From positions 124,001-188,000 of the forward strand of contig NZ_SMJU01000007.1 in NCBI RefSeq assembly GCF_004348825.1: DNA of 64,000 nucleotides, given 5' to 3'. The notes under the pieces were generated by a model. The model saw only the letters and a list, made by a program, of their open reading frames with translations. It was not told the origin of the DNA and searched no databases. Position 1 is the first letter of the stretch, and every line of letters starts with the position of its first letter. Of the stretch, positions 21,861 through 38,271 are shown piece after piece. Made by a program: the position numbers and the translations under genes. The DNA is from Arundinibacter roseus (lineage in GTDB: Bacteria > Bacteroidota > Bacteroidia > Cytophagales > Spirosomataceae).

Positions 21861-21949
21861 TACTTTTAAAAGACAAACTCAAAAAACGGAAGGGTACGAT
21901 ACGATTTTTGGCGACTTATTCACATTGTACATTTCACAATTTTCATCCT

Positions 21950-24439
21950 ATGAACTTGAATACCATTGCAAGGTATCAGAAAAATTTTCTGTTTATACCA
22001 ATCCTTTTGTTCTTTTCAATATCCACCGTTTTCTCACAGGTAAATGCTCCTGCTCCCGCCGGAACCCCCAGTGCACCAGCTCCCACCAATACCGGAACAA
22101 CCCAAGGAACTACAAACCAGGGAACTAACGCACCAGCAAATGCTCCCAGAAGTGCCGCCAATCCAACTGCCCCAACAGTTCAGGGTGCCTCAGGAAATGA
22201 TGCGACTGACCTTATCAATAAATCAAAAACGGAAGAAGCCTTAAAAAGCGCCCAGCAAAATGCAGATGCCGCCCAGAATGAAGCAGTATCTGCCGCAGAA
22301 CAGGCAAAAATTGCACTTAGAGAAAAAATCTTTGGGTATTCAATTTTTGCCAATAAGAGTTTTGACCTCATTCCCGATCAGATGATTGCTACTCCCCGCG
22401 ACTACACGATTGGACCGGGAGATAATCTGAACCTTTATATATATGGATATGCTCAGATTCCAGACCTTGAATTATTAGTAAACAGGGATGGCTTTGTTTC
22501 CATTCCAAAAGTGGGGAACGTAAACTTAGGAGGAAAGTCAATTGAAGAAGCACAAAAAATTCTATTAGCTCGATTTTCAAGATTCATTCCCAGTCTGTTA
22601 GGTTCTGGTGGGCAGCCTGCTCCTACCAAATTAATGCTCAGCCTTGGTCAAATCCGATCCATAAAAGTTTTCGTAACAGGAGAAGTTATTAACCCCGGAG
22701 TATATGAACTAACGTCTCTATCTTCTGCCTTCAACGCGCTCTATCAGGCAGGGGGCCCAAACGAAATCGGTTCTTTCCGTGAAGTACGGGTAATCAGAAA
22801 CAATAAGGTAGTGTCGAAATTTGACATCTATGATTATCTGATTGAAGGCACGCTTGATGGCGATATTCGGGTACAAGACAATGATAATATTAATGTAGGA
22901 TACTACAAAAAGAGGATCGAAGTAACAGGGAACGTCAAGCGTCCTGGCATTTTTGAAGCAAAAGCCTCCGAAAAACTTAGTGATATCCTTAGATATGCGG
23001 GCGGATTTACGGATAATGCTTATCAAGGTTTGGTAAAAGTGTATCGTATAACCAATCGGGAACGTAAGATTTTGGATGTTTCAAGCGACAAATTTGACAC
23101 ATTTGAGCTTTCTACGGGCGATGAGGTGATTGTGGAAACTGTACTTGACCGTTTTGAGAATATTGTTACGATTGAAGGCGCAGTGATGCGCCCCGGTGAA
23201 TATTCCGTTGATAATAACCCAACACTCAAAACACTTCTGAAAAATGCACAGGGATTGCGCGAAGATGCTTTCACTGGACGCGTAACAGTTACCCGCACCC
23301 GCGAAGACCAATCGGTTGTCAGTATTCCACTAAATTTGACTGACCTATTCAATAATACGGTACCTGATCTGGAACTGACCCGATTGGATCTGGTAACAGT
23401 TCCCTCAAAATTTGACATGGCAGAGCAATCTACCGTACATATTCAAGGGGAAGTAAACAACACCCAAATTGGTGATAATGGAGGAAACTTTCCCTACATG
23501 GCCAATATGACGCTGGAAGATCTGCTGGTGAAAGCTGGCGGATTCAAGGAATCAGCAGCTTCACAAGTAGAGGTTGTGCGCAGGGTTCGGGACTCTAATG
23601 CACAGGCTGCCGATGCAGCGATTTCCAAAATCTATCGCTTTGATGTTAGCCGTGATTTATCATTAAATGGACAGGCAAGTGGCTTCACACTTATGCCATT
23701 TGATGAGGTAATTGTACGGAAATCACCAAATTATCAGGAGCAACAATTCGTAGCACTGGAAGGTGAAATCCTGAATCCCGGACAGTATGGCATTATGAGT
23801 AAAAATGAAAAAATCACGGATCTTTTACAACGTGCAGGTGGACTTACAGACCTTGCCTATATAAAAGGCGCCACTTTAATTCGGACAACTCCCGTGTCAG
23901 AATTTGAATCCCAACAAACAGCAACTGCTATTGGACAGATCTCTAATGATGTCAAAAACGGAGCCTTCAATATTGGAGGTGGCGGCGAAGTTCGTCAGGA
24001 ATTTATTGGAATTCAATTGGAGAAAATCCTTAAAAATCCGGAATCAAACGATAACCTAATTATTCAGGAAGGAGACATTATTCGTATTCCAAAACGGTTG
24101 GAAACGGTGCAGGTAAAAGGCGAACTTCTGTATCCAACCACTGTAAAATACAATGACAACATGGCGTTTTTGGATTACGTCTCACAATCAGGTGGTTTTA
24201 CGAGGACCTCTTTGAGAAGAAGCGCCTATGTAAAATACCCCAATGGTTCGGTGGATCGTACCCGGAAATTCCTGTTTTTTAATGTGTATCCAAAAGTAGA
24301 ACCCGGCTCAGAAATTTATGTACCGGTTAAAGCAGGCAGTGAATTAACTGCCCAACAGGTACTGCAACAAGGTGTAGCTGTTACTTCCACCCTTATGACC
24401 CTCATTCTTTCTGTTCTTGCCTTCCGCAATATCCGATAA
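21950..24439 (+). CDS. outer-membrane polysaccharide export protein with SLBB repeats (Wza/KpsD-like)
   Basis: An 829-residue protein from the ATG at 21950; a longer in-frame start has no signal peptide. The signal peptide (about 1-30, ending VFSQ) lacks a lipobox Cys, unlike Wza. A region rich in Pro, Ala and Thr (about 31-80) and an Ala/Glu/Gln-rich helix follow. Next come the Poly_export domain (DYTIGPGDNLNLYIYG) and six SLBB repeats with cores such as VFVTGEVINPG, IEVTGNVKRPG, VTIEGAVMRPG and VALEGEILNPG. A hydrophobic C-terminal helix (TSTLMTLILSVLAF) ends it. It would form the periplasmic and outer-membrane conduit for the polymer. It is the first gene of the locus; the co-polymerase gene follows after 12 bases. 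Confidence 0.9.
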   Translation: MNLNTIARYQKNFLFIPILLFFSISTVFSQVNAPAPAGTPSAPAPTNTGTTQGTTNQGTNAPANAPRSAANPTAPTVQGASGNDATDLINKSKTEEALKSAQQNADAAQNEAVSAAEQAKIALREKIFGYSIFANKSFDLIPDQMIATPRDYTIGPGDNLNLYIYGYAQIPDLELLVNRDGFVSIPKVGNVNLGGKSIEEAQKILLARFSRFIPSLLGSGGQPAPTKLMLSLGQIRSIKVFVTGEVINPGVYELTSLSSAFNALYQAGGPNEIGSFREVRVIRNNKVVSKFDIYDYLIEGTLDGDIRVQDNDNINVGYYKKRIEVTGNVKRPGIFEAKASEKLSDILRYAGGFTDNAYQGLVKVYRITNRERKILDVSSDKFDTFELSTGDEVIVETVLDRFENIVTIEGAVMRPGEYSVDNNPTLKTLLKNAQGLREDAFTGRVTVTRTREDQSVVSIPLNLTDLFNNTVPDLELTRLDLVTVPSKFDMAEQSTVHIQGEVNNTQIGDNGGNFPYMANMTLEDLLVKAGGFKESAASQVEVVRRVRDSNAQAADAAISKIYRFDVSRDLSLNGQASGFTLMPFDEVIVRKSPNYQEQQFVALEGEILNPGQYGIMSKNEKITDLLQRAGGLTDLAYIKGATLIRTTPVSEFESQQTATAIGQISNDVKNGAFNIGGGGEVRQEFIGIQLEKILKNPESNDNLIIQEGDIIRIPKRLETVQVKGELLYPTTVKYNDNMAFLDYVSQSGGFTRTSLRRSAYVKYPNGSVDRTRKFLFFNVYPKVEPGSEIYVPVKAGSELTAQQVLQQGVAVTSTLMTLILSVLAFRNIR

Positions 24440-24451
24440 CATAAACCTATT

Positions 24452-25528
24452 ATGCCACAAGTAGTAAATCAATCAATACCCGAAGATCAGATTTCACCGA
24501 AGCTGGTTCTTCTCAAAATAGTTTCAGTAAAGGACTCGCTCGTAAAAAATTGGAAACTGATTCTGCTTTTTTGTGTCATTGGATATGGAATTGGGTTTGC
24601 ACTGGATTTGTATCTAAAAAAACGGGATCAATACCAGGCAACCGTACTTTTCAATCTGGGTTCAGGCGGTGGATCTACTGGCGGAATTGGCGATGTAGCC
24701 GGCCTTTTGGGATTGGGCTCTACGCCTGACGCCAATATATTTACCGGCGAAAACTTCTTCTATTTTGTTAAATCCCGACCAGTAGTGGAACGGGCACTTA
24801 TGAAAGAAGTTGAGGTTGGTTCAAAGAAGATGTTACTTGCCAACTTTTACATCGATTCAAGTGCGATTTTGGAAAATGAATGGAAAGAAAATGAAAAACT
24901 TCAAAATTTTCATTTTACAAAAAACGACCCCAAAGAGTTCAACATGCAGGAACGCCTGGCTCTCAATGATGTTTTAGAGCGTATTCGGGTAGGTACTGAT
25001 GTTTATCAACCTGATCGTAAATCTTCCTTTATAATGATTCAGGTGACCATCGAAAATCCACTTCTTTCAGAAACCTGGGCAAATATCTTACTTGAAACCG
25101 TGGAAGAGGTTTATACAGAAAATCAAACATCCAAAACCCGGCGGACGCTCAATTTGCTACAAAACCGTGCTGATTCGCTTTCCCGAATCCTTGGCGGAAC
25201 CGAAAACAGATTGGCCCGTCAAATTGATTATAGTACCAATATCGTCGATCCCGTTGGTAAAGTTCAGGTAAATCGTCTGCAAAGAAGCTCGGAATTTGTG
25301 CAGCAGCTGTATATGGAAGCCATGCGGAATGTAGAAGCCATGAAGGTATCTTTGGTTCGCGAAGCTCCACTTTTCACGATTATTGAGCCGGTAAAGAATC
25401 CCGTGGATCGTAAATCGGACGAAGGTAAAAGAGCTCAGATTGGTTTACTGCTAGGTTTGCTTTTAGCCTTAGTTTTTATCTATTTTAAAAGTGTCTACGC
25501 TGCGATCATGAGTGATCCAAGGGCCTAA
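24452..25528 (+). CDS. polysaccharide co-polymerase, Wzz/KpsE-like
   Basis: A 358-residue inner-membrane protein with two helices (about 36-53 and 328-348) around a large, helix-rich periplasmic domain. Residues before the second helix (FTIIEPVKNPVDRKSDEGKR) contain the Pro-rich motif of Wzz-type proteins. There is no cytoplasmic tyrosine-kinase domain. In ABC-type capsule systems such proteins (KpsE, PCP-3) bridge the transporter and the outer-membrane channel, which fits its place between the SLBB protein and the ABC permease. A role in chain length control is possible. Confidence 0.85.
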   Translation: MPQVVNQSIPEDQISPKLVLLKIVSVKDSLVKNWKLILLFCVIGYGIGFALDLYLKKRDQYQATVLFNLGSGGGSTGGIGDVAGLLGLGSTPDANIFTGENFFYFVKSRPVVERALMKEVEVGSKKMLLANFYIDSSAILENEWKENEKLQNFHFTKNDPKEFNMQERLALNDVLERIRVGTDVYQPDRKSSFIMIQVTIENPLLSETWANILLETVEEVYTENQTSKTRRTLNLLQNRADSLSRILGGTENRLARQIDYSTNIVDPVGKVQVNRLQRSSEFVQQLYMEAMRNVEAMKVSLVREAPLFTIIEPVKNPVDRKSDEGKRAQIGLLLGLLLALVFIYFKSVYAAIMSDPRA

Positions 25529-25533
25529 ATTCT

Positions 25534-26361
25534 ATGAGTTATCGTATTACTATAAAAGCGGGCGGGTCAGAAAAAGACTATTGGAAGGATCTATGGAGAA
25601 ACCGTCAGTTGCTCTGGATTCTTGCCAAACGGGACATTTCGGTTCGGTATAAACAAACATTGCTTGGCATTGCATGGAGCGTCATTCGCCCCTTGATGAC
25701 TATGCTCGTAATGGCCGTAGTGTTTAGTTTTATTGCCCGGCTACCCGGCGATCCCGGAATCCCCTATCCACTCATGATTTTGGGCGGATTGACCATTTGG
25801 ACATTTTTTTCCAATGCGTTTGGACAGGTCAGCAATAGCGTACTCATTAATTCAAATCTGGTATCCAAAGTTTACTTTCCCCGGCTTTTCATGCCGCTAA
25901 GCGCTGTCTCGGTGAGTTTCATCGATTTCCTGATTTCGCTTGTACTCTTTATTTGCCTAAGTTTTTACTACAACTATCCGCCAAGTATAAATATAATTTT
26001 CCTGCCCTTTTTCATCGTTTTGACTTTCATTACGTCCATGGGCTTTGGACTATTCTTTGCGGTGATCAACGTTCGTTTTCGCGACATTGCTCAGTTGGTT
26101 CCCTTCATAATTCAGGTCGGCATGTACATTTGCCCAATCGCATACAGCAGCCGACTTGTTGAGGGGAAATGGTTCTATAAATTTTATATCATGAACCCGG
26201 TCGTTGGAATTGTGGATGGTTTTAAATGGTGCCTTTTGGGAGACAATGCCTACTTTGATCCCAATAGCCTCTATTCCACATTAATCATTTCAATACTAGC
26301 ATTGTTGCTGTCCGTTATGTACTTTCGTAAGAAAGAAAACACCTTTGTCGACAATATCTGA
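25534..26361 (+). CDS. ABC-2 type polysaccharide export permease (Wzm/KpsM-like)
   Basis: A 275-residue inner-membrane protein with six hydrophobic segments. It starts with an amphipathic stretch (KDLWRNRQLLWILAKRDISVRYKQTLLGIAWSVIRPL) diagnostic of the Wzm/TagG/KpsM family, and has MNPVVGIVDGFKWCLLG near the end. With the ATPase encoded 17 bases downstream it would move the lipid-linked glycan from the cytoplasm to the periplasm. Confidence 0.94.
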   Translation: MSYRITIKAGGSEKDYWKDLWRNRQLLWILAKRDISVRYKQTLLGIAWSVIRPLMTMLVMAVVFSFIARLPGDPGIPYPLMILGGLTIWTFFSNAFGQVSNSVLINSNLVSKVYFPRLFMPLSAVSVSFIDFLISLVLFICLSFYYNYPPSINIIFLPFFIVLTFITSMGFGLFFAVINVRFRDIAQLVPFIIQVGMYICPIAYSSRLVEGKWFYKFYIMNPVVGIVDGFKWCLLGDNAYFDPNSLYSTLIISILALLLSVMYFRKKENTFVDNI

Positions 26362-26378
26362 TAGAGTTTCTATTGCCT

Positions 26379-27638
26379 ATGCACGTCATATCAGCTGAGA
26401 ATATCAGCAAAAAATATATTATTGATCACCAACGTTCGCGTAAATCGTCGAGTTTAAAGGACGCGTTTTCAAATACGTTTGAACAACTATTTTCCAGGGA
26501 AAAGAAAGATTCGGACTTTAAGGAAAAGGAAGAATTCTGGGCGTTAAAAGATGTCAGCTTTACAATTGATCAGGGCGACCGCATCGGGATTGTAGGACAT
26601 AATGGCGCCGGGAAATCGACACTGCTAAAAATCCTCAGCCGGATTACCGATCCAACAACCGGTCAGGTAACAATTGATGGACGAGTCGCAAGTCTTCTGG
26701 AAGTAGGTACAGGCTTTCATCCAGAACTTACCGGACGAGAAAATATTTTCCTTAACGGCGCAATCCTTGGAATGGACAAAAGTGAAATCAAAAGATCGTT
26801 TGATGCGATCGTTGATTTTGCCGGAGTAGAAAAATTTCTTGATACGCCCGTGAAACGCTATTCGTCCGGGATGTACGTGCGTTTGGGATTTGCCATTGCT
26901 GCTCATTTGGAACCTGAAATTATGATTATCGATGAGGTATTGGCCGTTGGTGATGCTGAATTTCAGAAAAAATGCCTGGGGAAAATGAGGGACGTCTCCG
27001 AAAGTGGCCGTACGCTACTTTTTGTGAGTCATAATCTCACGGCAATTCAGGCCTTATGTAACAAATCATTCTTTTTTGAAAAAGGGCAACTGATAGATCA
27101 GGGAGAAACTACGCACATTGTAACGACTTATCTGAGCAGGGTATCACAAAAAAGGCTCGAAAGAAGCTGGGAAGATGTGAACTCAGCTCCCGGAAATGAT
27201 CAGGTTCGTGTAAAGAGTTTCCGGATTCTTCCTGAATACGTCGACAATCTCATACATATAGATGTTCGAACACCAATGCAGGTACAGTTTGAATTCTGGA
27301 ATATGGTAGATCAGGCTCGCCTGAATTTAAGCCTGCATTTATATTCATACACCGGCGAATGTATCTTCAACGTTGGAACTTCTTCGCAACCTTTTGACAA
27401 AGGGCTCATCACGGGTGCTCTCGAAATTCCGGGACATTTTTTGAACGATGGTTCCTATGTGATTTCAATCATGGTAGTGAAAGATACAAGTTCCGTCATT
27501 TACAATATGGAAGAAGCCCTCACTTTTGACGTCGAAGATTATCGTGAAAACGTAAGTTGGTACGGAAAATGGCCGGGCTATATTCGCCCTCAATTAAATT
27601 TTTCACTGAGACAAACCGAAAACGTAGTGAATGATTAA
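26379..27638 (+). CDS. polysaccharide export ATPase with C-terminal domain (Wzt-like)
   Basis: A 419-residue protein; the ATG at 26379 is chosen over an in-frame TTG at 26373. The nucleotide-binding domain has Walker A GHNGAGKST (73-81), the signature YSSGMYVRL and Walker B IMIIDEVLAVGD. Residues about 255-415 form an immunoglobulin-like Wzt_C domain, which in Wzt of E. coli O8/O9a recognises the finished O-chain end. Capsule ATPases of the KpsT type lack it, so the exporter may check the polymer's terminal group. The stop overlaps the next gene by 8 bases. Confidence 0.93.
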   Translation: MHVISAENISKKYIIDHQRSRKSSSLKDAFSNTFEQLFSREKKDSDFKEKEEFWALKDVSFTIDQGDRIGIVGHNGAGKSTLLKILSRITDPTTGQVTIDGRVASLLEVGTGFHPELTGRENIFLNGAILGMDKSEIKRSFDAIVDFAGVEKFLDTPVKRYSSGMYVRLGFAIAAHLEPEIMIIDEVLAVGDAEFQKKCLGKMRDVSESGRTLLFVSHNLTAIQALCNKSFFFEKGQLIDQGETTHIVTTYLSRVSQKRLERSWEDVNSAPGNDQVRVKSFRILPEYVDNLIHIDVRTPMQVQFEFWNMVDQARLNLSLHLYSYTGECIFNVGTSSQPFDKGLITGALEIPGHFLNDGSYVISIMVVKDTSSVIYNMEEALTFDVEDYRENVSWYGKWPGYIRPQLNFSLRQTENVVND

Positions 27639-28713
27639 TGTCACTAAAACCTTCCTGCCTGACAAGGAAGAATATATAAAGTACATCAGCGAAATCTGGG
27701 ACAGAGTACAGCTGACCAACAACGGCCCTCTTCTCCAAAAGCTCGAAGCCGAGCTAAAAAAGTATCTGGGGGTTGATGATCTCTACTTTTGCAGTAATGG
27801 TACAGTTGTTCTCCAAATCGCGCTCAAAGCATTAGGCGTAAAAAAAGAGGTCATTACCACACCATTTTCGTACTGCGCAACAACCAATTCCATTCTTTGG
27901 GAAAATTGTACTCCCGTTTTTGTCGATATTGATGCAAATACCTTCAATATTGATCCAACATTAATTGAGGCGGCTATTACTCCTGATACAGAGGCTATTA
28001 TGGCTACTCACGTATACGGAAATCCCTGTGAGGTGGAAGCAATTGAAGAAATTGCCAAAAAACATTCGCTCAAAGTAATTTATGATAGTGCGCATGCATT
28101 TGGAGTTACTTACAAAGGCAAATCCTTACTTTCCTTTGGCGATATAAGTACATGCAGTTTTCATGCAACCAAGGTATTTCATACAATTGAAGGCGGTGCC
28201 ATCATTTCCAACCATCCCGAATTACACGAAAAATTGCACTTGCTGCGGGCTTTTGGTCACAGAGGAGATGAGGATTATTTGTTTGCAGGCATTAATGGAA
28301 AAAATTCGGAGTTTCATGCCGCTATGGGTTTGTGTAATTTGCCGCATGTTGGCGAAATAATTGCCGCCCGAAAAGCTATTTTTGATATTTACGATGAAAC
28401 GTTAATCTGGGATACACTGAAAAAACCAGTTCAATCGCCCGACATTTCGTACAACTATTCCTATTATCCGGTAGTCTTTTCTTCCGAATCTGTGATGCGA
28501 AGAGTTCAAAAGGCTTTGCTTGAAAATGAAATTGCCCCTCGTCGGTATTTTTATCCTTCCCTGAATACTCTTCCTTTCATGCCCAACTATTTTTCATGCC
28601 CTGTTTCGGAGGATATATCTTCCCGGGTTTTATGTTTGCCGCTATATGTTGGTTTGCTTCCCGAAGAAATTCAGAAAATAAGCGTGATTATCAATCAAAA
28701 CTGTTGCATGTAA
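27631..28713 (+). CDS. DegT/DnrJ/EryC1/StrS-family sugar aminotransferase
   Basis: A 360-residue PLP enzyme that would put an amino group on a nucleotide-linked keto-sugar. The PLP lysine is K181 in SFHATKVFHTIEGG, D152 in YDSAHAFG contacts the pyridine ring, and SNGTVVLQIAL is the phosphate region. No sugar dehydratase or epimerase lies nearby, so the keto-sugar must be made by enzymes encoded elsewhere. The WbqC and acyltransferase genes downstream suggest the amine is then acylated. Confidence 0.92.
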   Translation: MINVTKTFLPDKEEYIKYISEIWDRVQLTNNGPLLQKLEAELKKYLGVDDLYFCSNGTVVLQIALKALGVKKEVITTPFSYCATTNSILWENCTPVFVDIDANTFNIDPTLIEAAITPDTEAIMATHVYGNPCEVEAIEEIAKKHSLKVIYDSAHAFGVTYKGKSLLSFGDISTCSFHATKVFHTIEGGAIISNHPELHEKLHLLRAFGHRGDEDYLFAGINGKNSEFHAAMGLCNLPHVGEIIAARKAIFDIYDETLIWDTLKKPVQSPDISYNYSYYPVVFSSESVMRRVQKALLENEIAPRRYFYPSLNTLPFMPNYFSCPVSEDISSRVLCLPLYVGLLPEEIQKISVIINQNCCM

Positions 28714-28716
28714 TTC

Positions 28717-30756
28717 ATGGAGTTTGTCTATTGGATATTCTTTTTTCTTTTTCTCGGATCGGTCGGGCTTGTGGCCAAACGTATCAGCCAACCCTCTCTA
28801 ATTGAATGGATTCTGTGTAGCTTTCTCCTTTTTACAGGCTCAATTATTCCCACGGGCTTTGTGCTGTCTGCTCTTTATCTGACAGCACATACACCCAGCT
28901 GGATTATTGGAAATTTTATAGCCTTAGGTATACATTGGTTTTTTTGGACAAGATTGTCAGGCTCAAAAGTCAATTTTTCAATAAGAGAACTGATAGCCAA
29001 TAGAATAAGTACATTCGGGCATTGGTTTCAGGAATTGGCCCCTTTCCTAAAATTGCTTTTGATACTGATGTTTGGCACATTGACTATCATTGGAATTACC
29101 AATTTGCTGCTTGTACTATTTACGGTTCCAAATGAATGGGACAGTATGACCGGTCACCTCAACCGGGTGGTCAGATATATACAGCATGGAACAATGGCGC
29201 ACTTTGGGGGTACAAACTGGAATATGGACACTTATCCCAAGAGTGTATGTACCATTCAGATTTACAGCTATTTAATTTCCGGTAAAATTGAGAATGCTTT
29301 CAAACTCATTCATCATGCTTCCTATTGGATTACCCTCGTAGCTGTTTTTGGGATTGCGCAACGAATCGGTCGAAACCTTTCAGCCAGCTTTTTTTGTGCC
29401 CTTGCCTACGGATTGTTTTTGGATTTTTTGATGCAGGCCGTTACAACTGAAACCGATAGCGTGCTGACGGCCTACCTGAGTTGTCTGTTATATTTTTTAT
29501 TTACTTATCAGGCTACTCGAAATACACATTACCTGTATCTCTCTGGTTTTGTATTCGGCATTGCCCTTGGGCATAAGGTAACCTTTGTGTTGCTGCTGCC
29601 CTCGGTATTTGTCCTGATGATCTATACTGTTTTTCTTTCACCTTCCTTGAAAGTCACTATTCAACGCGTCTTTTCATTAGGTATTGCCATCCTTTTGGCA
29701 GTTTTAATTTACACGCTTCCTTCGGGCTATATTCGTAATATTCAGGAATTTGGGCACCCAATTGGTCCACCCACTGCCTTGCAGCACCAATCCGTAGAAC
29801 GTGCCGGAAGTTTACGAAATCTGTTGGAACAAGGGAGCCGTAATGTGGTTCGGTATAGCTATGATTTCTTTAATCTGGATGGAATTCGGAATGCTCAATG
29901 GGGCTACGATCTAAATACGCAGTTACGGAAACCGCTCGTAGTTCTGGAAGACAAGCTAGGCATGCGTCTCGACGAAGAAACAGATTTTTCCATCGTACCC
30001 TTTTCCTTTCAGCGCAGATTTGAATATTACAACGCCAATCCTTACTGGGGTATTTTGGGTTTTGCCTTGCTGCTGCCGTTGGTTTTACTGGTCTTTTTCC
30101 GTGTATTTCGTTCACGTCCGCATTGGTTTCTGGCAGCGGCCATCATTCTTCACTTTCTGGCTCTCTCCTACTCTGCCCCATACGACCCATTCAAAGGAAG
30201 GTATTTTATTGAAACCGGGCTATTTGCTGTTTTCTTTTTGTTGCTGCTCTTTTCAAACCACCGCTTATCCATTTTGAAACCCCGGCGCTGGGTGTGGAAA
30301 AGCTACGTAGCACTCATTATAGGTTTAGCCTGTATTTCGGCGGTTATGGCTGTTTATCTGAACATCCGGTGTCTGCCGATTTCGGCTTATGGATATGAAT
30401 CAGCTTTCACAACGGAGCGAATAAAATTCCAGACTTTTGCCCGGCCCGACACCTATCTTGCCTACAAAAGGTTTGATTCTATCGTACCTCCGCAGGCTAC
30501 TGTGGCCTTGGGGACAATCAATGATGACTTTGAATATCCCTTGTATGGAGAAGATTTGACCCGCAAATTAATTTCAATAAATCCTTTTGAACAGGGTGTT
30601 CAACCGATTCCCAAAGAGGCTGACTATTTATTTTTTGCGAAAAGCGTAATTTCTCCACAACCCGGAGACCTTCGTCTGAGCTCGGATGAACAGCTCGAAA
30701 ACCTATTGGTAAAAGGTGAAGAGTACTACTTACGGAAATTAACCGAATTAGAATGA
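28717..30756 (+). CDS. large polytopic membrane protein, GT39/ArnT-like
   Basis: A 679-residue protein with about 11-13 hydrophobic segments and a short soluble tail (about 560-679). An acidic motif in the first large loop (NEWDSMTGHLNRVVRYIQHG) matches the periplasmic Asp/Glu loop of GT-C enzymes, which use polyprenyl-phosphate sugars as donors. It could add side sugars to the polymer on the periplasmic side. I cannot name a donor. It begins 3 bases after the aminotransferase and overlaps WbqC by 4 bases. Confidence 0.7.
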   Translation: MEFVYWIFFFLFLGSVGLVAKRISQPSLIEWILCSFLLFTGSIIPTGFVLSALYLTAHTPSWIIGNFIALGIHWFFWTRLSGSKVNFSIRELIANRISTFGHWFQELAPFLKLLLILMFGTLTIIGITNLLLVLFTVPNEWDSMTGHLNRVVRYIQHGTMAHFGGTNWNMDTYPKSVCTIQIYSYLISGKIENAFKLIHHASYWITLVAVFGIAQRIGRNLSASFFCALAYGLFLDFLMQAVTTETDSVLTAYLSCLLYFLFTYQATRNTHYLYLSGFVFGIALGHKVTFVLLLPSVFVLMIYTVFLSPSLKVTIQRVFSLGIAILLAVLIYTLPSGYIRNIQEFGHPIGPPTALQHQSVERAGSLRNLLEQGSRNVVRYSYDFFNLDGIRNAQWGYDLNTQLRKPLVVLEDKLGMRLDEETDFSIVPFSFQRRFEYYNANPYWGILGFALLLPLVLLVFFRVFRSRPHWFLAAAIILHFLALSYSAPYDPFKGRYFIETGLFAVFFLLLLFSNHRLSILKPRRWVWKSYVALIIGLACISAVMAVYLNIRCLPISAYGYESAFTTERIKFQTFARPDTYLAYKRFDSIVPPQATVALGTINDDFEYPLYGEDLTRKLISINPFEQGVQPIPKEADYLFFAKSVISPQPGDLRLSSDEQLENLLVKGEEYYLRKLTELE

Positions 30757-31451
30757 CCATAGCCATCATGCAGCCCTATTTCCTGCCCTACATTGGGTAT
30801 TTTCAATTGCTTTATGCAGTTGACAGGTTTGTGCTTTATGATGACGTCAATTATATTAATCGAGGTTGGGTCAATCGAAATAATATTTTACTTGCGGGAA
30901 AACCTCATTTGTTTACTGTTCCGCTGCAAAATGCCAGTCAGAACAAAAAAATCTATGAAGTTACTCTTTCTGAGGATCAGGCCTGGCGAAAAAAATTATT
31001 GAAGACCATTCAGCAGGCTTATCAGAAAGCACCACATTTTGAGATCGTTTTTCAGATGCTTGAATCTATCCTCAATACACATTCCGAATCAATCGCCGAT
31101 CTTTGTTACGTATCCATTAGTACCATTGCGACTTACCTGGGCCTGGAAACAGAAATTATTTCTTCATCCCGAAAATATGAGAACGATTTACTGAAAGGGC
31201 AGGAACGTATTTTGTCAATTTGTAAATTAGAGGAAGCAAATCGTTATATCAATCCTATTGGTGGACAGGAACTTTACGATAAAGATACATTTGCTAAGCA
31301 GGATATTGACCTATATTTCATAAAAACCAAACCGGTATCGTACCCTCAGCTAAAAAACTCATTTGTCCCGTGGTTGTCCATTCTTGACGTCCTGATGTTC
31401 AACAACAAAGACGAGACACGGACACTTCTAAACGAATTTGAACTCATTTAA
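30753..31451 (+). CDS. WbqC family protein
   Basis: A 232-residue cytoplasmic protein with the WbqC hallmark IAIMQPYFLPYIGYFQLL (about 3-20) and DDVNYINRGWVNRNNIL. The family is common in O-antigen loci beside DegT aminotransferases, and an acyl- or aminoacyl-transfer role on amino sugars has been suggested, but its chemistry is not settled as far as I know. It overlaps its upstream neighbour by 4 bases and leads the acyltransferase by 2. Confidence 0.92.
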   Translation: MTIAIMQPYFLPYIGYFQLLYAVDRFVLYDDVNYINRGWVNRNNILLAGKPHLFTVPLQNASQNKKIYEVTLSEDQAWRKKLLKTIQQAYQKAPHFEIVFQMLESILNTHSESIADLCYVSISTIATYLGLETEIISSSRKYENDLLKGQERILSICKLEEANRYINPIGGQELYDKDTFAKQDIDLYFIKTKPVSYPQLKNSFVPWLSILDVLMFNNKDETRTLLNEFELI

Positions 31452-31453
31452 CT

Positions 31454-32113
31454 ATGGCAAAAGTAATCATTTTTGGTATTTTAGATACCGCTGAGCTAGC
31501 CCACTACTACCTGGAACATGACTCAGAACATGAAGTTGTTGCCTTTACGGTTAATCGTGAATATGTATCAGAACCTACCTTTCGGGGGCTGCCCGTGGTA
31601 GCTTTTGAAGATGTAGAAACGCTTTTCCCGCCACAGGAGTTTTCCTTTTTTGCCCCTATGACCGGTCGAAATATGAATCGTAACCGCGAAGCTATTTATA
31701 ACTCCATCAAAGAAAAAGGGTATTCATTGATTTCCTATATCAGTAGCCACGCTACTATTTTTGATCGAAGCGTAATTGGTGATAACTGTTTTATACTTGA
31801 AGATAATACCATCCAACCTTTTACAACCGTCGGTAACAACGTGGTTTTGTGGAGTGGAAATCACATTGGTCATCACGGAAAAATTCAGGACCACGTATTT
31901 TTTACCTCTCACGTGGTTTTGTCCGGGCATTGCATTGTAGAGCCTTACTGCTTTTTTGGGGTCAATAGCACGATTCGCGACTATACTCACCTGGCTCAGG
32001 GCACGCTTGTCGGAATGGCAGCGGCCATAACCAAAGCCACTGACGAATGGGGTATTTACGTCGGAAATCCTGCAAAAAAAGTCCCCGGAAAGAAAAGTTT
32101 TGAAGCTTACTAA
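31454..32113 (+). CDS. NeuD/PglD-like sugar O/N-acyltransferase
   Basis: A 219-residue protein. An N-terminal sugar-nucleotide-binding half (about 1-90, Rossmann-like, FGILDTAELAHYYLEHD) leads to a C-terminal left-handed beta-helix of hexapeptide repeats (about 95-205, including NHIGHHGKIQDHVFFTSHVVLSGH) and ends with IYVGNPAKK. It would acetylate, or formylate, the amino sugar made by the DegT enzyme. The domain layout is that of PglD, but the exact acyl group is not visible. Confidence 0.85.
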   Translation: MAKVIIFGILDTAELAHYYLEHDSEHEVVAFTVNREYVSEPTFRGLPVVAFEDVETLFPPQEFSFFAPMTGRNMNRNREAIYNSIKEKGYSLISYISSHATIFDRSVIGDNCFILEDNTIQPFTTVGNNVVLWSGNHIGHHGKIQDHVFFTSHVVLSGHCIVEPYCFFGVNSTIRDYTHLAQGTLVGMAAAITKATDEWGIYVGNPAKKVPGKKSFEAY

Positions 32114-32156
32114 TGCCCCTTCCTACCTGTGGGAAAAGGTTTATTATCCATTTTGA

Positions 32157-33377
32157 ATGAATTCGCAAAAAGTTCTTTTTATATCTCATGATGCCAATCG
32201 GGCCGGAAGTCAGCTTTTGTTGCTTCAATTGATAAGCCTGCTGAAACAAAAAGGTCTGTCGACCCATTTGCTGTTAGGCTATGGCGGAGATTTGGAATCG
32301 GAATTTCGACAAGTCACTGATGTTACAGTTCTTGAAAAGTCATATCAGCCCGTTTCACGGTTTAGTCGGGGACTTTCGAGGTTATCTATTTTTTCCCGTC
32401 AAACCAGAAAGTCAACTCAAAAAGATTATTTACAGGTAAAAAAAGAGCTTATACAGGCCAATATCGGGCTTGTATTTGTAAACTCTGTGGCCAATGCCGA
32501 ATTCTACGAAAAGCATCTGACCTATCTTCACGAGCTTCCGGTAGTCCTGTTTGCTCACGAATTAGAGATGTCAGTTGGCATGTATACCAACGAAATTAGC
32601 CTGAATTTTTTGCTTCAAAAATGTTGCCACCTGATCACCGTTTCCAAAGCTGTTTCCAGCTATTATATTGGCAAACATAATTTTCCAGAGCAACAAATCA
32701 GTACGTTTACGTTAATCAATACTCAGGAAATTTCGGAGAAATTAGCCGTTGTGGATCCTGACTATTTAAAAAAAGAACTAGGAATACCCCAACATGCTCT
32801 CGTCGTCGGCGGCTGTGGGAATGCTGAATGGCGAAAAGGAAATGATATTTTTAACCTCGTGGCGCATGAGGTTATTTTTCGTAAACCGGAACTTCCCGTT
32901 TACTTTGTTTGGATTGGTGCAGGGCCTTCTCAACCATTTTTTGAACAGATTAAGTTTGATATTGAGCGATTTGAACTGCAAAATCGAATTTTATTGATCC
33001 CGCCAACGCCCAAAGCGCTGGATTGCATGACACGATTTGACGTTTTTCTTCTCAGTTCCCGAGAAGATCCGTATCCCCTTGTTGTACTGGAAGCAGCTCT
33101 GCTTCAAAAACCCATCGTTTGCTTTGATAAAGCGGGCGGCGCACCCGAACTCGTTGAGCAGGATGCCGGTATGGTCGTTGACTATCTGGATATTCAGGCT
33201 ACGGCCGATGCCGTTCTTTCTCTTTTGGAACAACCGGAAATTAGACGGTCCAAGGGACAAAGGGCCTATCAAAAGGTGTTACAAAGGCACAATACCGAAC
33301 AAAGTATTCAAAATGTGTTAAATATCATCAGAGCTAATCTGCCGCAGGTGGCTTCCATAACCACTTCCACAGAATGA
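32157..33377 (+). CDS. glycosyltransferase family 4 protein
   Basis: A 406-residue cytoplasmic GT-B enzyme. The C-terminal donor domain begins near LGIPQHALVVGGCGNAEWRKGNDIF and carries the EX7E element in SSREDPYPLVVLEAALLQKPIVCFD. The N-terminal half (FISHDANRAGSQLLLLQLISLL) binds the acceptor. Retaining GT4 enzymes often add hexoses or deoxysugars; the donor is unknown. It overlaps the next gene by 4 bases. Confidence 0.9.
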   Translation: MNSQKVLFISHDANRAGSQLLLLQLISLLKQKGLSTHLLLGYGGDLESEFRQVTDVTVLEKSYQPVSRFSRGLSRLSIFSRQTRKSTQKDYLQVKKELIQANIGLVFVNSVANAEFYEKHLTYLHELPVVLFAHELEMSVGMYTNEISLNFLLQKCCHLITVSKAVSSYYIGKHNFPEQQISTFTLINTQEISEKLAVVDPDYLKKELGIPQHALVVGGCGNAEWRKGNDIFNLVAHEVIFRKPELPVYFVWIGAGPSQPFFEQIKFDIERFELQNRILLIPPTPKALDCMTRFDVFLLSSREDPYPLVVLEAALLQKPIVCFDKAGGAPELVEQDAGMVVDYLDIQATADAVLSLLEQPEIRRSKGQRAYQKVLQRHNTEQSIQNVLNIIRANLPQVASITTSTE

Positions 33378-34360
33378 CCATTGCATTTACCATTTGCTCT
33401 ATCAATTACCTGGCGCAGGCCCGTACGCTTGGTACCTCACTAAAAAAGACTAATCCCGATGTTCGGTATTTTGTGGGGTTGGTGGATCGACTTGATGACG
33501 TTCAGTTTGAGCCTGGTTTTTTGCCCGATTTTTCTTTGATTGAAGTTCATACCATTGGCATTGGGCGATTTGAGGAAATGTGTGATCGGTATAATATTAC
33601 CGAATTAAATACTGCGGTTAAACCTTTCTACTTTACTTACTTCTTTTCACAGTTCCCGGAGGCGCAGCAGGTTATTTATTTCGACCCTGATATAATTGTA
33701 TATCAACCACTTACAGAACTAATCAATCAATTAAAAAAGCATGAGGCGGTAGTAACGCCCCATATTTGCACACCCATAGAAGACACCAAAACTCCAAACG
33801 AACTTCATCATCTCAATACGGGAGTGTATAATCTGGGTTTTTGCGCATTTCGCAGAAGTATCGAATCGTTGAATTTCATACGTTGGTGGGAAGAAAAACT
33901 TCGGTACGAATGCCTCATTTCGCTTTGCGACGGGTTATTTGTGGACCAAAACTGGATGAATTTTCTGCCCCTTTTCATTGAAAATACCTGTATTGAAAAA
34001 AATCCGGGCTATAACATGGCCTACTGGAATCTTCACGAACGGCAGGCGTCACAAATTGAAAATGAGTGGATTATAAATGACTTGTACCCATTACTATTTT
34101 TCCATTACAGCGGCTATGATCCCAAAAATCCTGATGATATTTCTAAATATCAGGATCGATTTACATTCCAAATGCGTCCTGACTTAAAACCGCTTTTTGA
34201 AATTTATCACAATCAATTACTGGAAAACGGCAATTCCTACTACCGCACATTTCCATGTAGATATATCAAACCAAACAAAATTTATAAATATGCCCGCGTA
34301 AGAAAAGCCTTAACTGATCCATTAAAAAAACTGGTGAAAGCCCTTGAATCCTACACATGA
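33374..34360 (+). CDS. GT-A glycosyltransferase with DPD motif (GT8-like)
   Basis: A 328-residue protein. The N-terminus (FTICSINYLAQARTLGTSL) resembles GT8-type nucleotide-binding domains, and the metal motif FDPD (103-106) sits at the expected place after QVIYF. A later block, LCDGLFVDQNWMNFLPLF, resembles the acceptor loop of GT8 or GT32 enzymes. It is clearly related to the protein encoded at 35085-36044, which has lost this metal motif. Both neighbours overlap or abut, so a joint function is likely. Confidence 0.8.
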   Translation: MTIAFTICSINYLAQARTLGTSLKKTNPDVRYFVGLVDRLDDVQFEPGFLPDFSLIEVHTIGIGRFEEMCDRYNITELNTAVKPFYFTYFFSQFPEAQQVIYFDPDIIVYQPLTELINQLKKHEAVVTPHICTPIEDTKTPNELHHLNTGVYNLGFCAFRRSIESLNFIRWWEEKLRYECLISLCDGLFVDQNWMNFLPLFIENTCIEKNPGYNMAYWNLHERQASQIENEWIINDLYPLLFFHYSGYDPKNPDDISKYQDRFTFQMRPDLKPLFEIYHNQLLENGNSYYRTFPCRYIKPNKIYKYARVRKALTDPLKKLVKALESYT

Positions 34361-35079
34361 AAGAATTAGTAACTATACTTATTCCTCTTTCTGATAAAGA
34401 TTTAACACCTTTCCAGAAAAAAAATCTGGCAAGCTGTCAAGCCCACTTAGGCGATTTTCAGATTACATTCATTAAGGCAGATTGTAATGAATGTGTGGCA
34501 GAAGTTCTTGAAATTTGTCCAAAAGCTGATTTTTTTTCGGTGGATGATCGATATTTCACTGCTTCACAAGGGTTGGCCAAATTTCTGCTAAGTGAGGAGT
34601 TATACGATATGTTTAGTTGGAGTCGTTTTTTACTTTGGTTTGATATGAATTCGTACGTGCATCGAAACGAACTTGCGTATTGGTGCCGGCAGGGTTATGA
34701 CCTCATTCAGTTGTACCCAGCGTTTGATACAAACCTTACGCAAATGGATCAGTGGCGAAGAATAATTAATCCTGGGAAATCGATACTACTGGAAAAAGAA
34801 ATATACCGGAGTTTTCAGCACAGCGCCGGATTTTCTTTACGTCGGGTAGATGTCTTTCAGAAGCTCGTTCGTAAGAAAAAATCCTTGATTTTCTCTTTTT
34901 TTCAAGAAATGTCCGGTATTGATTCTGCCAATGACTCCCTTTTTCTGGAATACTATCTAAACCGTTGGCGAACAGATCTGGCAATTCCGAACCAAATTTC
35001 CCGGAATCGTTTTGTTCACCTTGATCATTTACTTATGCAGGAAGAAATGCCTTTTGCCAGCATTTCACCCATAATTTGA
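34357..35079 (+). CDS. DUF5672 family protein, putative glycosyltransferase
   Basis: A 240-residue protein. The pattern VDDRYFTASQGLAKFLLSEELYDMFSW, then FLLWFDMNSYVHRNELAYWCRQGYDLIQLYP matches DUF5672, where the usual core is of the QLDAWVF type; here it reads WFDMNSYV. The family occurs with polysaccharide genes and is thought to be a GT-A-like transferase, but no activity is known to me. It overlaps the upstream gene by 4 bases; the chosen start of the downstream gene lies 5 bases after its stop. Confidence 0.78.
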   Translation: MKELVTILIPLSDKDLTPFQKKNLASCQAHLGDFQITFIKADCNECVAEVLEICPKADFFSVDDRYFTASQGLAKFLLSEELYDMFSWSRFLLWFDMNSYVHRNELAYWCRQGYDLIQLYPAFDTNLTQMDQWRRIINPGKSILLEKEIYRSFQHSAGFSLRRVDVFQKLVRKKKSLIFSFFQEMSGIDSANDSLFLEYYLNRWRTDLAIPNQISRNRFVHLDHLLMQEEMPFASISPII

Positions 35080-35084
35080 ATTGC

Positions 35085-36044
35085 ATGAAAATTGTCTATA
35101 CAGTTTGTAATCGTGATCAGCTGGCTCAGGCCCTTTGTCTGGGCAAATCTGTTCAGGAACACGCACCTGAGCATCAATTTGTTATTGGTTGGGCAGATTC
35201 GGCTGCACTTCCAAACTTGCCAACCTGGGCAATCGGAATAGACCTTTTGTCTTCTTCATTTGATCGCATTCGGGGGCAAGCTTCTACTTATCTTGATTTT
35301 GAGTTTGTTACAGCCACGCGCTCATTCTTTGCAAAGGAAATTTTACAGCGTTTTCCGGCATGTCAGGAACTTGTATTTCTTGCGCCAAGTGTCCTCCTTT
35401 TTCGATCATTTACTGAAATTTCCCTTTCAAATTACTTTTTGCAGCTAACTCCCCACCGGCTTTCTCCCATTCAAAAAACTGGGACGGTAGATGACAAACG
35501 CATATTAAATATGGGCATGTTTCATCACGGAAGCTGGATCTTACATCCCGATGGTCAGGAAGAAAAGTGGCTGAATTGGTGGAATGATCGACTGCTAAAC
35601 CGAGCTCATTTAAACCTATGCGAGGGCATGTGCCTGGACCAATTATGGCTAAATTATGCGCCACTTTATCATGCTAATGTTACAACGGTTCGGAATGGCG
35701 GCTGGCATGTTGGAATACATTCGTTGATTGATTGCACTTTAACAAAAGATTCAACGGGTTACTTTCTGCAAAATTCTCCCATAATCAGCGTTGATTTTGC
35801 AGGATTAGAAAGTTTTCATCCGCTATGGTCAGATCATCACATCGAGAATTCGGCTGCTTTAATTGAGCTCCGCTCGATGTATAAGTCCGTACTACTGAGC
35901 AATAAATCAGATAACACTTTTGAAGTTCAACGCTTTGGCCTGGCAAGTCGAAATACCAACGCCCGACCGTTTCGGAAAAGAATTTCAGGATCTGTAAAAA
36001 ATATTATTCACGCGATCGAGCATTTCGATTGGACACACAACTAA
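35085..36044 (+). CDS. GT8-like paralogue lacking the DxD motif
   Basis: A 319-residue protein from the ATG at 35085; a TTG at 35076 would overlap the previous stop. It aligns over its length with the protein encoded at 33374-34360: MKIVYTVCNRDQLAQALCLGKSV, RFPACQELVFL and LCEGMCLDQLWLNYAPLY have clear counterparts. Where the relative has FDPD, this one has LAPS (99-102), so the metal- and sugar-nucleotide-binding acid residues are missing. It may be a non-catalytic partner, or may use another mechanism. Confidence 0.75.
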   Translation: MKIVYTVCNRDQLAQALCLGKSVQEHAPEHQFVIGWADSAALPNLPTWAIGIDLLSSSFDRIRGQASTYLDFEFVTATRSFFAKEILQRFPACQELVFLAPSVLLFRSFTEISLSNYFLQLTPHRLSPIQKTGTVDDKRILNMGMFHHGSWILHPDGQEEKWLNWWNDRLLNRAHLNLCEGMCLDQLWLNYAPLYHANVTTVRNGGWHVGIHSLIDCTLTKDSTGYFLQNSPIISVDFAGLESFHPLWSDHHIENSAALIELRSMYKSVLLSNKSDNTFEVQRFGLASRNTNARPFRKRISGSVKNIIHAIEHFDWTHN

Positions 36045-36055
36045 GTAAGTCGTTG

Positions 36056-36943
36056 ATGAAATCCCTGGAACAATACACGTCGGATCTCCGCAAGAGCCTT
36101 CTAAAATCTCCGAAAAAAGCGATGATGGATCCTTCTTTTCCCCGACTGACGGTCATTACACCTTCCTATAATCAGGGTATTTACCTGGAAAGAACAATTT
36201 TGAGTGTCCTGAATCAAGGATATCCAAATCTTGAATACATAATCATAGATGGGGGCTCAACGGATAGTAGTGTTGAAGTTATAAAGAAGTACGAAAACTA
36301 TTTGTCCTATTGGGTTAGCGAAAAAGACAATGGACAAGTGCATGCACTTAACAAGGGACTTAGTCGTGCCACTGGCGAATGGTTAAGTTTCCAAAACTCG
36401 GATGATGTTTATTTTCCAGAAACTTTTTCACGGTTTGGAGCGGTGATCAACAAATATCCGAACGTGTCCATTTTCTATGGAGATTTATTCATGATTACAC
36501 CGGACGATACCGTAACTGAACTATTGAAAACATTGCCCTTCAATTTTAAAAGTCAATATTTTGAAGGAATGCAGATTCATAATCAATCCTTATTTTTTAA
36601 GAAGAAACTCGTAGAAAAATTTGGACTATTCGATGAAAGCTATCGATTTGCTTTTGACTATGAATTCATCACAAGATTTACCGCTCAGCCGGGCACGTAC
36701 ACGAAGCGCATAGAAGGCCTTGCCGGAGCCCTTCGTGTTCACGAGGATGCCAAGTCTTCTACTATTGCAGAGGTTGGCAAACAAGAGCATGCCCGTGTAC
36801 AGGCCGATTTCAGGAAATACATTTCGGGCGGTTTACCTCATAAATTGCAGTATCTTTACTGCCGAATACGAAAAATAGCCTATTTAGTGGCTCAAATGGA
36901 CTGGAAATATATTGCCCATCGAAAGAGTCTCCAACAAAAATGA
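36056..36943 (+). CDS. glycosyltransferase family 2 protein
   Basis: A 295-residue GT-A enzyme from the ATG at 36056, chosen over a TTG at 36029 that lies inside the preceding gene. It shows TVITPSYNQGIYLERTILSVLNQGYPNLEYIIIDGGSTDSS and the DxD-type QNSDDVY. The YRFAFDYEFITRF block is the acceptor region. It is an inverting transferase of the WcaA type. The linkage is unknown. The stop overlaps the next start by 4 bases. Confidence 0.92.
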   Translation: MKSLEQYTSDLRKSLLKSPKKAMMDPSFPRLTVITPSYNQGIYLERTILSVLNQGYPNLEYIIIDGGSTDSSVEVIKKYENYLSYWVSEKDNGQVHALNKGLSRATGEWLSFQNSDDVYFPETFSRFGAVINKYPNVSIFYGDLFMITPDDTVTELLKTLPFNFKSQYFEGMQIHNQSLFFKKKLVEKFGLFDESYRFAFDYEFITRFTAQPGTYTKRIEGLAGALRVHEDAKSSTIAEVGKQEHARVQADFRKYISGGLPHKLQYLYCRIRKIAYLVAQMDWKYIAHRKSLQQK

Positions 36944-38271
36944 ATTTAAGTTCTCTATTTCATCTATTCAATAATCTCCGATACTCGGCGGGTATAGCCA
37001 TGATGTTTAATGGCTTTCCAATCGTGTTTTTTATTCGGGACACTTTGCATATCGGACCAGCGAGTAATGTTTTTACGGCATTTTTCTTTGCTTTGGCACT
37101 TATATTGATGACGCCAACGCACCTCTTTATCCGATTATATAAGCCCAATGTAGTGCTGCTCAAATACGCAGTTCTGTTTCTTGCATTGGCACTTTACCAT
37201 TTTTTTATCTTCAACAATACTGGGTTTGATTGGTTTGTAGAACTTGGAAACTTTGGCTTTACGTTTGCCTTCCTTTTCATGCTTATTCACGTTCCCAATC
37301 ATGTCAAAGATACGCTCGTTCCTATCTTGTTCATTTTCGCTTTTTTCTCAAACCTAACCCTTATTTATTCTCTTTTAACTGATCCAAACTGGAAATTGGG
37401 AATGCGTGCGGCTGTAACTTTTGAGAATGCAGGCGCTCAGGAAGGTGGAAACCCTCACATTGCCGCCCGAAATGGTTTGGTGTGTCTCTTAACGGCTTTC
37501 GTGCTCATGTGGACCTATAAGAATGTTCTTATTCGTCTCTTTTTGATATGTTCAATCCTGATAAGTATTGGAGTTTTGGTGCTAGCTCAGGTAAAATCAA
37601 GCCTGCTCGCCTTGGGTTTGATTGCCGGTTTTTTCCTCGTTTTCAACGTAACGCTTGTCAAGACAATTCAGGCTGCAAAGGCCCTATTCAGTCTTCGGAA
37701 CATTTTAGTTGTGGTAGTAATGGTAGTCCTTCTTAATTTCTTACTAAACAGATTCAGCGACTTTTATAGTGTTTTAGTAGGCTATTGGGCAGGATTTGAA
37801 AATAAGATCATGGACATAGTTTTCACTGCCTTTGGTTTAAAAATTTCTGAAACTGCCAGTGTTGATGCCTCTGCTATGGGCCGGGTAACTAGTTTTATTT
37901 ATTTCCAAAAAGCATTTTTATCACCCGAAATTCTATTTGTTGGTCGTGGATACAAGGATTATTTTATGGATGTCCCGCTCGTAGAGGCCATTATTAATCA
38001 TGGTATTTTTGGCTTTATCTTTTTTGGCGGTTTTAATTTATATCTGCTGATTTACACCATTCGTGAGATACGAAATCCGACCAATCCGCTTACTTTATTT
38101 CTGGCGTACTTTTTCGTTTATTTCACAATTCTGCTTATTTCCAATGGTCGTCCTTACGATGTTTCCTTTTGGTTTCCATACGCAGTTATGATTCGTTTCC
38201 TTGGCATTCATTATTTGGATGCTAGTAATAAGCCACTTGAAAATCAAGAACTTGTTACTTCTAGTTCGTAG
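36940..38271 (+). CDS. O-antigen ligase/polymerase-like membrane protein
   Basis: A 443-residue protein with about 10-12 membrane segments and a large periplasmic loop around residues 280-330 (including KISETASVDASAMGRVTSFIYFQKAF), the layout of WaaL/Wzy proteins. In an ABC-exported system a ligase that moves the glycan from its lipid carrier to lipid A core is the simplest role. No flippase (Wzx) gene is in the locus, which argues against a classical Wzy role. It is convergent with, and overlaps by 11 bases, the gene at 38261-39988. Confidence 0.75.
   Translation: MNLSSLFHLFNNLRYSAGIAMMFNGFPIVFFIRDTLHIGPASNVFTAFFFALALILMTPTHLFIRLYKPNVVLLKYAVLFLALALYHFFIFNNTGFDWFVELGNFGFTFAFLFMLIHVPNHVKDTLVPILFIFAFFSNLTLIYSLLTDPNWKLGMRAAVTFENAGAQEGGNPHIAARNGLVCLLTAFVLMWTYKNVLIRLFLICSILISIGVLVLAQVKSSLLALGLIAGFFLVFNVTLVKTIQAAKALFSLRNILVVVVMVVLLNFLLNRFSDFYSVLVGYWAGFENKIMDIVFTAFGLKISETASVDASAMGRVTSFIYFQKAFLSPEILFVGRGYKDYFMDVPLVEAIINHGIFGFIFFGGFNLYLLIYTIREIRNPTNPLTLFLAYFFVYFTILLISNGRPYDVSFWFPYAVMIRFLGIHYLDASNKPLENQELVTSSS

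Follow-up and report, generated by a model that had tools for sequence, protein, structure and literature searches.

A GT8-like glycosyltransferase paralogue without a metal site in Arundinibacter roseus and its relatives: a predicted metal-independent transferase

The DxD motif is the common recognition mark of glycosyltransferases with the GT-A fold, and proteins that lack it are easily called inactive. A stretch of 64,000 nucleotides from Arundinibacter roseus (Bacteroidota; Cytophagales; Spirosomataceae), hereafter the window (assembly GCF_004348825.1, contig NZ_SMJU01000007.1, positions 124,001 to 188,000 of the forward strand), raises the question of what such a protein may do. Three closely packed genes encode a GT8-like glycosyltransferase with its metal site in place (A), a DUF5672 protein (B), and a paralogue of A without the metal site (C). 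A first-pass annotation of the window had suggested a catalytic glycosyltransferase, a pseudo-glycosyltransferase, and a third transferase acting as one complex, an interpretation that our analysis partly supports. Based on motif conservation, we tentatively predict that C is a metal-independent GT8-like transferase; we rank this reading slightly above that of a silent partner, while granting it somewhat less than an even chance. The genes and residues concerned are listed here by their positions in the window.

33374..34360, plus strand: A, GT8-like GT-A glycosyltransferase of 328 amino acids with the metal triad D104/D106/H244 and the DQ pair D191-Q192 (open reading frame, Pfam, AF2 structure model, profile alignment).
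34357..35079, plus strand: B, DUF5672 protein of 240 amino acids (Pfam PF18922, E 1.1e-19).
35085..36044, plus strand: C, GT8-like paralogue without the metal site, 319 amino acids (alignment to A, AF2 model, structure comparison).
33683..33691, plus strand: DxD of A (gac cct gat, D-P-D; DNA and A/C alignment).
34103..34105, plus strand: C-terminal metal histidine H244 of A, in HYSG, the equivalent of GT8 HxxG (DNA, profile alignment).
34648..34650, plus strand: Asn98 of B, which is Asp in those DUF5672 relatives that were read from outside the window's clade (QLDAFVF versus FDMNSYV).
35382..35390, plus strand: A-P-S at the DxD place in C (gcg cca agt; DNA, alignment).
35637..35642, plus strand: retained DQ pair of C, D185-Q186, aligned to D191-Q192 of A (DNA, alignments).
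35793..35795, plus strand: D237 of C at the metal-histidine place, in DFAG (DNA, alignment).

The paralogy of A and C, claimed in the first-pass annotation, is clear from both alignment methods used: blastp gives 110 bits (E 2e-32) with 23% identity over 329 columns, the Smith-Waterman score of 280 lies far above those of 500 shuffles (mean 34, maximum 69), and both stretches quoted in that annotation align. The FDPD of A (D104, D106) and the LAPS of C occupy identical alignment columns, as had been proposed, and the motif falls at the same place in the AF2 models, between equivalent strands (E99-103 and E107-109 in A, E95-99 and E103-105 in C). What had not been noticed is that the metal histidine H244 of A (FFHYSG) is also replaced in C, by D237 (SVDFAG), and that B has lost a conserved aspartate as well. 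With the DxD aspartates and the C-terminal histidine all gone from C, the entire metal triad has been lost. Both models are confident, full GT-A folds (mean pLDDT 92.6 for A and 88.9 for C), and a shifted DxD in the C of the window was looked for and rejected, as the only [DE]x[DE] anywhere in the protein is DFE at residue 71.

Among the matches listed in the structure comparison of the AF2 models, GT8 enzymes are the best solved neighbors of both proteins: A matches glycogenin with Z 17.1 (236 residues, root-mean-square deviation 4.1) and LgtC with Z 15.8, and C matches them with Z 18.6 (226 residues, root-mean-square deviation 3.5) and Z 16.4, respectively. Pfam GT8 (PF01501) finds A with E 2.3e-4 and 21.3 bits, under its cut-off of 24.3, and for C there is no credible Pfam, NCBIfam, or PHROG match, GT8 included. 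When the A-type rows were aligned by hhalign with canonical GT8 sequences (three of the five fetched), a match with P 3.5e-5 placed the motifs of A in GT8 register: FDPD on LYLDxD, LNTG on YFNAG, the DQ of VDQNW on (D/E)Q, and FFHYSG on HYTG. A thus has the metal and sugar residues of GT8.

The residues that C-type proteins have kept are as informative as those they have lost. The all-row alignment holds 196 rows, reduced from 220 by merging those identical over the C-terminal 200 residues, and residue positions below are in A numbering. Throughout the 86 C-type rows D106 is absent, and H244 is absent from 85; N148 and G150 are kept in all 86, Q192 in 83, and the complete D191-Q192 pair in 79, the seven exceptions being EQ in four rows, DG in locus L041, DR in locus L068, and a gap in a cut copy. 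This pattern, with NxG in 86/86 and DQ in 79/86, is that of metal-independent enzymes, and the prefix "pseudo" given to the protein earlier was an assumption that it does not bear out. Some [DE]x[DE] does occur within about 20 residues of the DxD column in 34/86 C-type rows, in varied places. A-type rows have 91 columns fixed to at least 95%, and both C-type groups keep 20 of these, including G150, D191, Q192, and W194. Because these groups were split on columns 244 and 246 (and not on 104, 106, 148, 191, or 192), conservation at 244 and 246 is partly by construction. Both groups have replaced D106 and H244, and the window's group alone has also replaced D104. At position 104 the window's group has A or S and the other group D; at position 106 the former has T or S and the latter N, T, or S, rarely A, and this narrow choice of residues implies that the site is still constrained.

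Two replacement states predominate. In the window's clade, D104 is missing, position 244 is D or E (twice N), and an arginine stands at position 10 (43 rows, plus one without R10). In Spirosoma, Larkinella, and Runella, D104 is accompanied by N244 and K/R246 (35 rows). A basic residue at 246 is found in 35/38 rows with D104 versus 0/48 without it, and positions 10 and 11 are never basic in the 105 A-type rows. To judge from these columns, the two states look like side chains filling the metal site. K144 and R179 were also considered as C-specific gains and dropped, since some second copies with DxD or some rows of the outgroup have them too.

How widespread this condition is was assessed across the family. 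With C as query, matches were obtained in 187/200 family genomes and in 36/36 genera; the matches include A, and motifs were therefore read directly, row by row. A first contig scan with C as query found no relative. In a set of one genome per genus (36 genera; 65 rows from hits above 60 bits), a full second copy without DxD is present in 22 genera, in all 22 within A's own locus. The other 14 comprise eight with A only, three with a DxD-intact second copy, one (G007) with two A-like copies, after a weak third hit in L039 was dropped, and two further cases, G010, whose second copy is cut by the contig end (the rooted tree does not include this partial copy), and G024, whose second hit was not read. 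Among 80 named loci, nearly all from Spirosomataceae, D-P-D and H[YF]SG are kept in every A row, a nearby second copy occurs in 75, and DxD is absent from 74 of these 75, so that the motif loss first noticed in the window recurs in other genomes. The exception is a second copy of Pseudarcicella (L137) with DTD and HFSG. No second copy is visible in five loci, three on short contigs (L140, L143, L145) and two not (L142, L146). DxD and a lost histidine are never combined in any alignment row, and both DxD and histidine are kept in all 20 further homologue rows, which represent 19 of 28 hits outside the family and one extra copy from the same family. The single DxD-less row with the histidine is L053 (EPE, position 11458, genome G019), possibly an intermediate state or a different metal site. 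We also note that L144, whose record is titled Flavobacterium sp. SUN052, has a cluster of the Spirosomataceae type, reflecting either a wrong title or cluster transfer.

When the tree is computed with the motif columns excluded, a single branch separates the 22 DxD-less rows from all others (81/70; recovered in 82% of 200 bootstrap trees). The rows closest to them are three DxD-bearing second copies, one of them from Pseudarcicella. Most simply, the metal site would have been lost once, a reading with moderate support from a tree that has some rows on long branches. The enclosing 30-row C branch (100/98) takes in three homologues from other families, and A and C therefore look older than Spirosomataceae. 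A recent duplication of A was considered and is argued against by the separate, old branches of A-type and C-type rows, with a root that is uncertain because no branch of the tree sets the outgroup rows apart from the rest. The ratio of nonsynonymous to synonymous substitution rates (dN/dS) was computed between named loci, for 39 pairs in which dS of C is below 1.2. Its median is 0.117 (0.07-0.20) for C, compared with 0.043 for A in the same pairs, which are not independent. The open reading frames of C-type copies are intact as well. Where measured, C is thus under purifying selection, and sequence comparison describes an old, selected protein and not the plainly decaying second gene that the first-pass annotation had named as counter-evidence.

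The gene between the two paralogues has a history of its own. B matches PF18922 with 71.1 bits (cut-off 24.4), and the second DUF5672 gene of the window genome (L214, G000:C11:239080-239598) scores 166.7 bits versus 71.3 for B with the Pfam model. These loci yield 73 distinct DUF5672 rows, whose motif column reads LDA in 30 and Asn in 40, with PHT, PST, and LDT once each. The Asn-type rows were seen only in the window's clade, in which A, B, and C are contiguous: in 35 named loci measured there, B carries Asn in 34 and Asp in one, and the A-B-C gaps are at most 22 bases or a slight overlap. Six more loci of this clade with duplicate B rows (L072, L073, L075, L076, L078, L079) have Asn in four, His in one, and Ser in one. 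In the other C-type group, an Asp-type B was found in 17 named loci, none contiguous with A and C. Of 14 further loci of that group without a B row, L126 and L132 are merged duplicates with B, L122 has a weak B, and no B lies within the fetched stretch in the remaining 11 (ten of them Runella-type). The Asp is kept in L214 and in two other DUF5672 proteins from elsewhere (L212, L213). The B of the window is also altered in the NEDVFWG-like motif, which reads NDSLFLE. Asn-type B proteins are under purifying selection (dN/dS 0.105, 34 pairs). Asp-bearing B sequences match A-type rows weakly by hhalign (probability 6%, P 0.006), with QLD on DPD and NGG near NxG; they have almost no hhalign match to C-type rows or canonical GT8, and a sequence search of the PDB with B gave no credible match.

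The arrangement of the three genes in the window is as first described, with an overlap of four bases (ATGA) between A and B and five bases between the stop of B and the ATG of C at 35085 (an alternative TTG start at 35076 is open too). So closely packed, the genes look like a single transcription unit, in keeping with the proposal that they are made together. As a conserved triplet the arrangement holds in part: contiguous A-B-C was seen in the window's clade only, and other loci show either A-(x)-B-GT2-C or an A-C arrangement for which no B was found nearby.

What, then, might C do? Having lost the metal half of the site and kept the catalytic half, C resembles metal-independent glycosyltransferases more than dead partners. 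On the reading that we prefer, the metal triad of an ancestral second GT8-like gene would have been replaced in one lineage, while the sugar half (NxG, D-Q) was kept almost unchanged. As in bacterial GT6 and GT14, side chains of the protein would take over from the metal in holding the diphosphate of the nucleotide-sugar, with R10 plus D/E244, or D104 plus N244 plus K/R246, as alternative fillings of the metal site. C would add its own sugar beside that of A to a surface polysaccharide, which the ABC transporter encoded upstream would export. It might bind A as well, and such binding would be compatible with activity.

Several observations weigh against this prediction. The direct hhalign match of C-type rows to canonical GT8 is weak (probability 7.7%, P 0.0045, motifs out of register), which is why C was read column by column through A. 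The change from His to Asp or Glu in the window's clade puts an acid beside the expected diphosphate, with no obvious help for donor binding, and R10 may only pair with the acid at 244. The contrast between R10/D244 and D104/K246 mostly separates two clades. L041 (12370, G008) belongs by tree to the Spirosoma-type clade, yet has S104, D244, and R10; its DQ has become DG, and with the Gln also lost it may be a special case. N153, N214, and Y217, fixed in A, are changed in C, the DQ pair could be retained for reasons of fold, and C evolves faster than A. Finally, in the 36-genus set C-type copies were found solely in A-carrying genomes, a distribution that fits a dependent subunit equally well.

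This last point leads to the principal alternative, in which C is a non-catalytic paralogue that folds, stabilizes, or steers A, with the Asp-less B as a third subunit in the window's clade; we regard it as a substantial possibility, placed slightly below our preferred reading. All 22 full-length C-type copies of the genus set lie in the locus of A (A served to fetch the 80 named loci, which hence do not test this co-occurrence). A, B, and C are contiguous in the window's clade, as measured in 35 loci and seen by gene order in six more, and the loss of the Asp from B falls in that same clade. DxD-less partners are also known from CHSY-CHPF (PMC12748766), IRX9 (PMC4132061), and Cosmc (PMC7185993). 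However, catalytic residues are what known dead partners tend to have lost, and C shows the reverse, the window's own copy included. Moreover, representatives of 8/36 genera have A without a second copy, so that A does not always depend on C. It is less probable, and in our view unlikely, that C is a binder of the growing glycan or another phosphorylated ligand, serving in sensing or length control and not joined to A. The retention of sugar-side residues beside a rebuilt metal side would suit such a protein, as would the tryptophan that replaces Y213 in both C-type groups and the histidine that replaces N214 in most rows, but nothing points to a particular ligand and no GT8-like precedent for a binding protein is known to us, although no search aimed at one was made. 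Drift in a decaying gene would account for the higher dN/dS and lower conservation of C relative to A; given the dN/dS range and intact frames reported above, together with an old loss retained over many genera that kept NxG and DQ, we consider this explanation extremely improbable.

If C is a metal-independent transferase, it may represent a new and independent origin of metal independence, GT8-like and with two side-chain substitutes, and in the window's clade part of a co-encoded A-B-C assembly, with a conserved acidic motif missing from two proteins and intact in A alone; the motif counts make this fuller proposal conceivable, and we consider it rather unlikely. In a full-text literature search that covered few subscription papers, we recognized no report that describes this gene pair or a GT8-like enzyme lacking its metal site, and among the papers listed we saw nothing on this cluster or on the function of DUF5672. 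The locus offers a natural series of an intact outgroup, an intact sister copy, loss in one lineage, and later constraint, and this series is suited to testing either metal loss in a GT8-like enzyme or the upkeep of a silent transferase by bacteria. Should C be active, annotation based on motifs misses such enzymes; should it be silent, it would be a bacterial parallel of CHSY-CHPF in a simple genetic setting.

The surroundings of the three genes are listed below.

21908..27638, plus strand: upstream export genes, encoding an SLBB/Poly_export protein, an open reading frame without a Pfam match, an ABC-2 permease, and an ABC ATPase with a weak Wzt_C match.
27631..33377, plus strand: DegT aminotransferase, PMT-like membrane protein, WbqC, NeuD-like hexapeptide transferase, and GT4, which accompany A in many loci of the family.
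36029..38271, plus strand: downstream GT2 and a membrane-protein-like open reading frame without a Pfam match, also in the cluster at many loci.

The plus-strand order is therefore DegT, PMT-like, WbqC, NeuD-like, GT4, A, B, C, GT2, and the membrane-protein-like frame, and a large part of this gene run is seen again around A across many genera. Judged by its protein families, the cluster looks like a locus for an ABC-exported surface polysaccharide or O-antigen. On the minus strand at 38261-39988, a 575-residue open reading frame without a Pfam match runs antisense to the cluster and overlaps its downstream end by a few bases. The window genome consists of 44 contigs and is rated 100% complete; when it was searched with either paralogue as query, no A/C family member beyond these two was found. 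The closest named A is that of Persicitalea jodogahamensis (74% identity).

Among known systems, the GT8 enzymes LgtC and glycogenin share their fold with A and C, and the DxD, NxG, DQ, and HxxG of A stand at GT8 positions; the differences are that A falls under the Pfam cut-off and that C has no GT8 match and lacks both aspartates and the histidine. The NCBIfam family Npun_R2821/Npun_R2822 (NF045582) bears a weak likeness to A (24.9 bits), far under its cut-off of 250. The pairs CHSY-CHPF, T-synthase-Cosmc, and GAUT1-GAUT7 each combine an active enzyme with a motif-altered paralogue. CHPF is described as having lost most donor residues (PMC12748766), Cosmc as having lost both DxD and xED (PMC7185993), and GAUT7 as possessing DxD and HxxGxxKPW without the potential nucleophilic Thr (PMC7533613), while IRX9 has lost DxD and functions independently of catalysis (PMC4132061). 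These pairs are eukaryotic and are proven complexes or chaperone pairs; catalytic or donor residues are missing from their partners, whereas C has retained DQ. Independent DxD losses are described for GT14 and prokaryotic GT6 (PMC7185993). Foldseek lists BoGT6a chains for the models of A and C alike, although BoGT6a is not among the 50 VIA rows listed. Bacterial GT6 is another family, the C-type rows read APS, APT, SPT, DPN, and the like in place of NXN, and C has in addition lost the metal histidine. Nonetheless, BoGT6a, in which DXD is replaced by NXN and catalysis is kept without metal (PMC3961637), shares with C a GT-A fold and a replaced DxD, and the catalysis that it has kept is what we predict for C.

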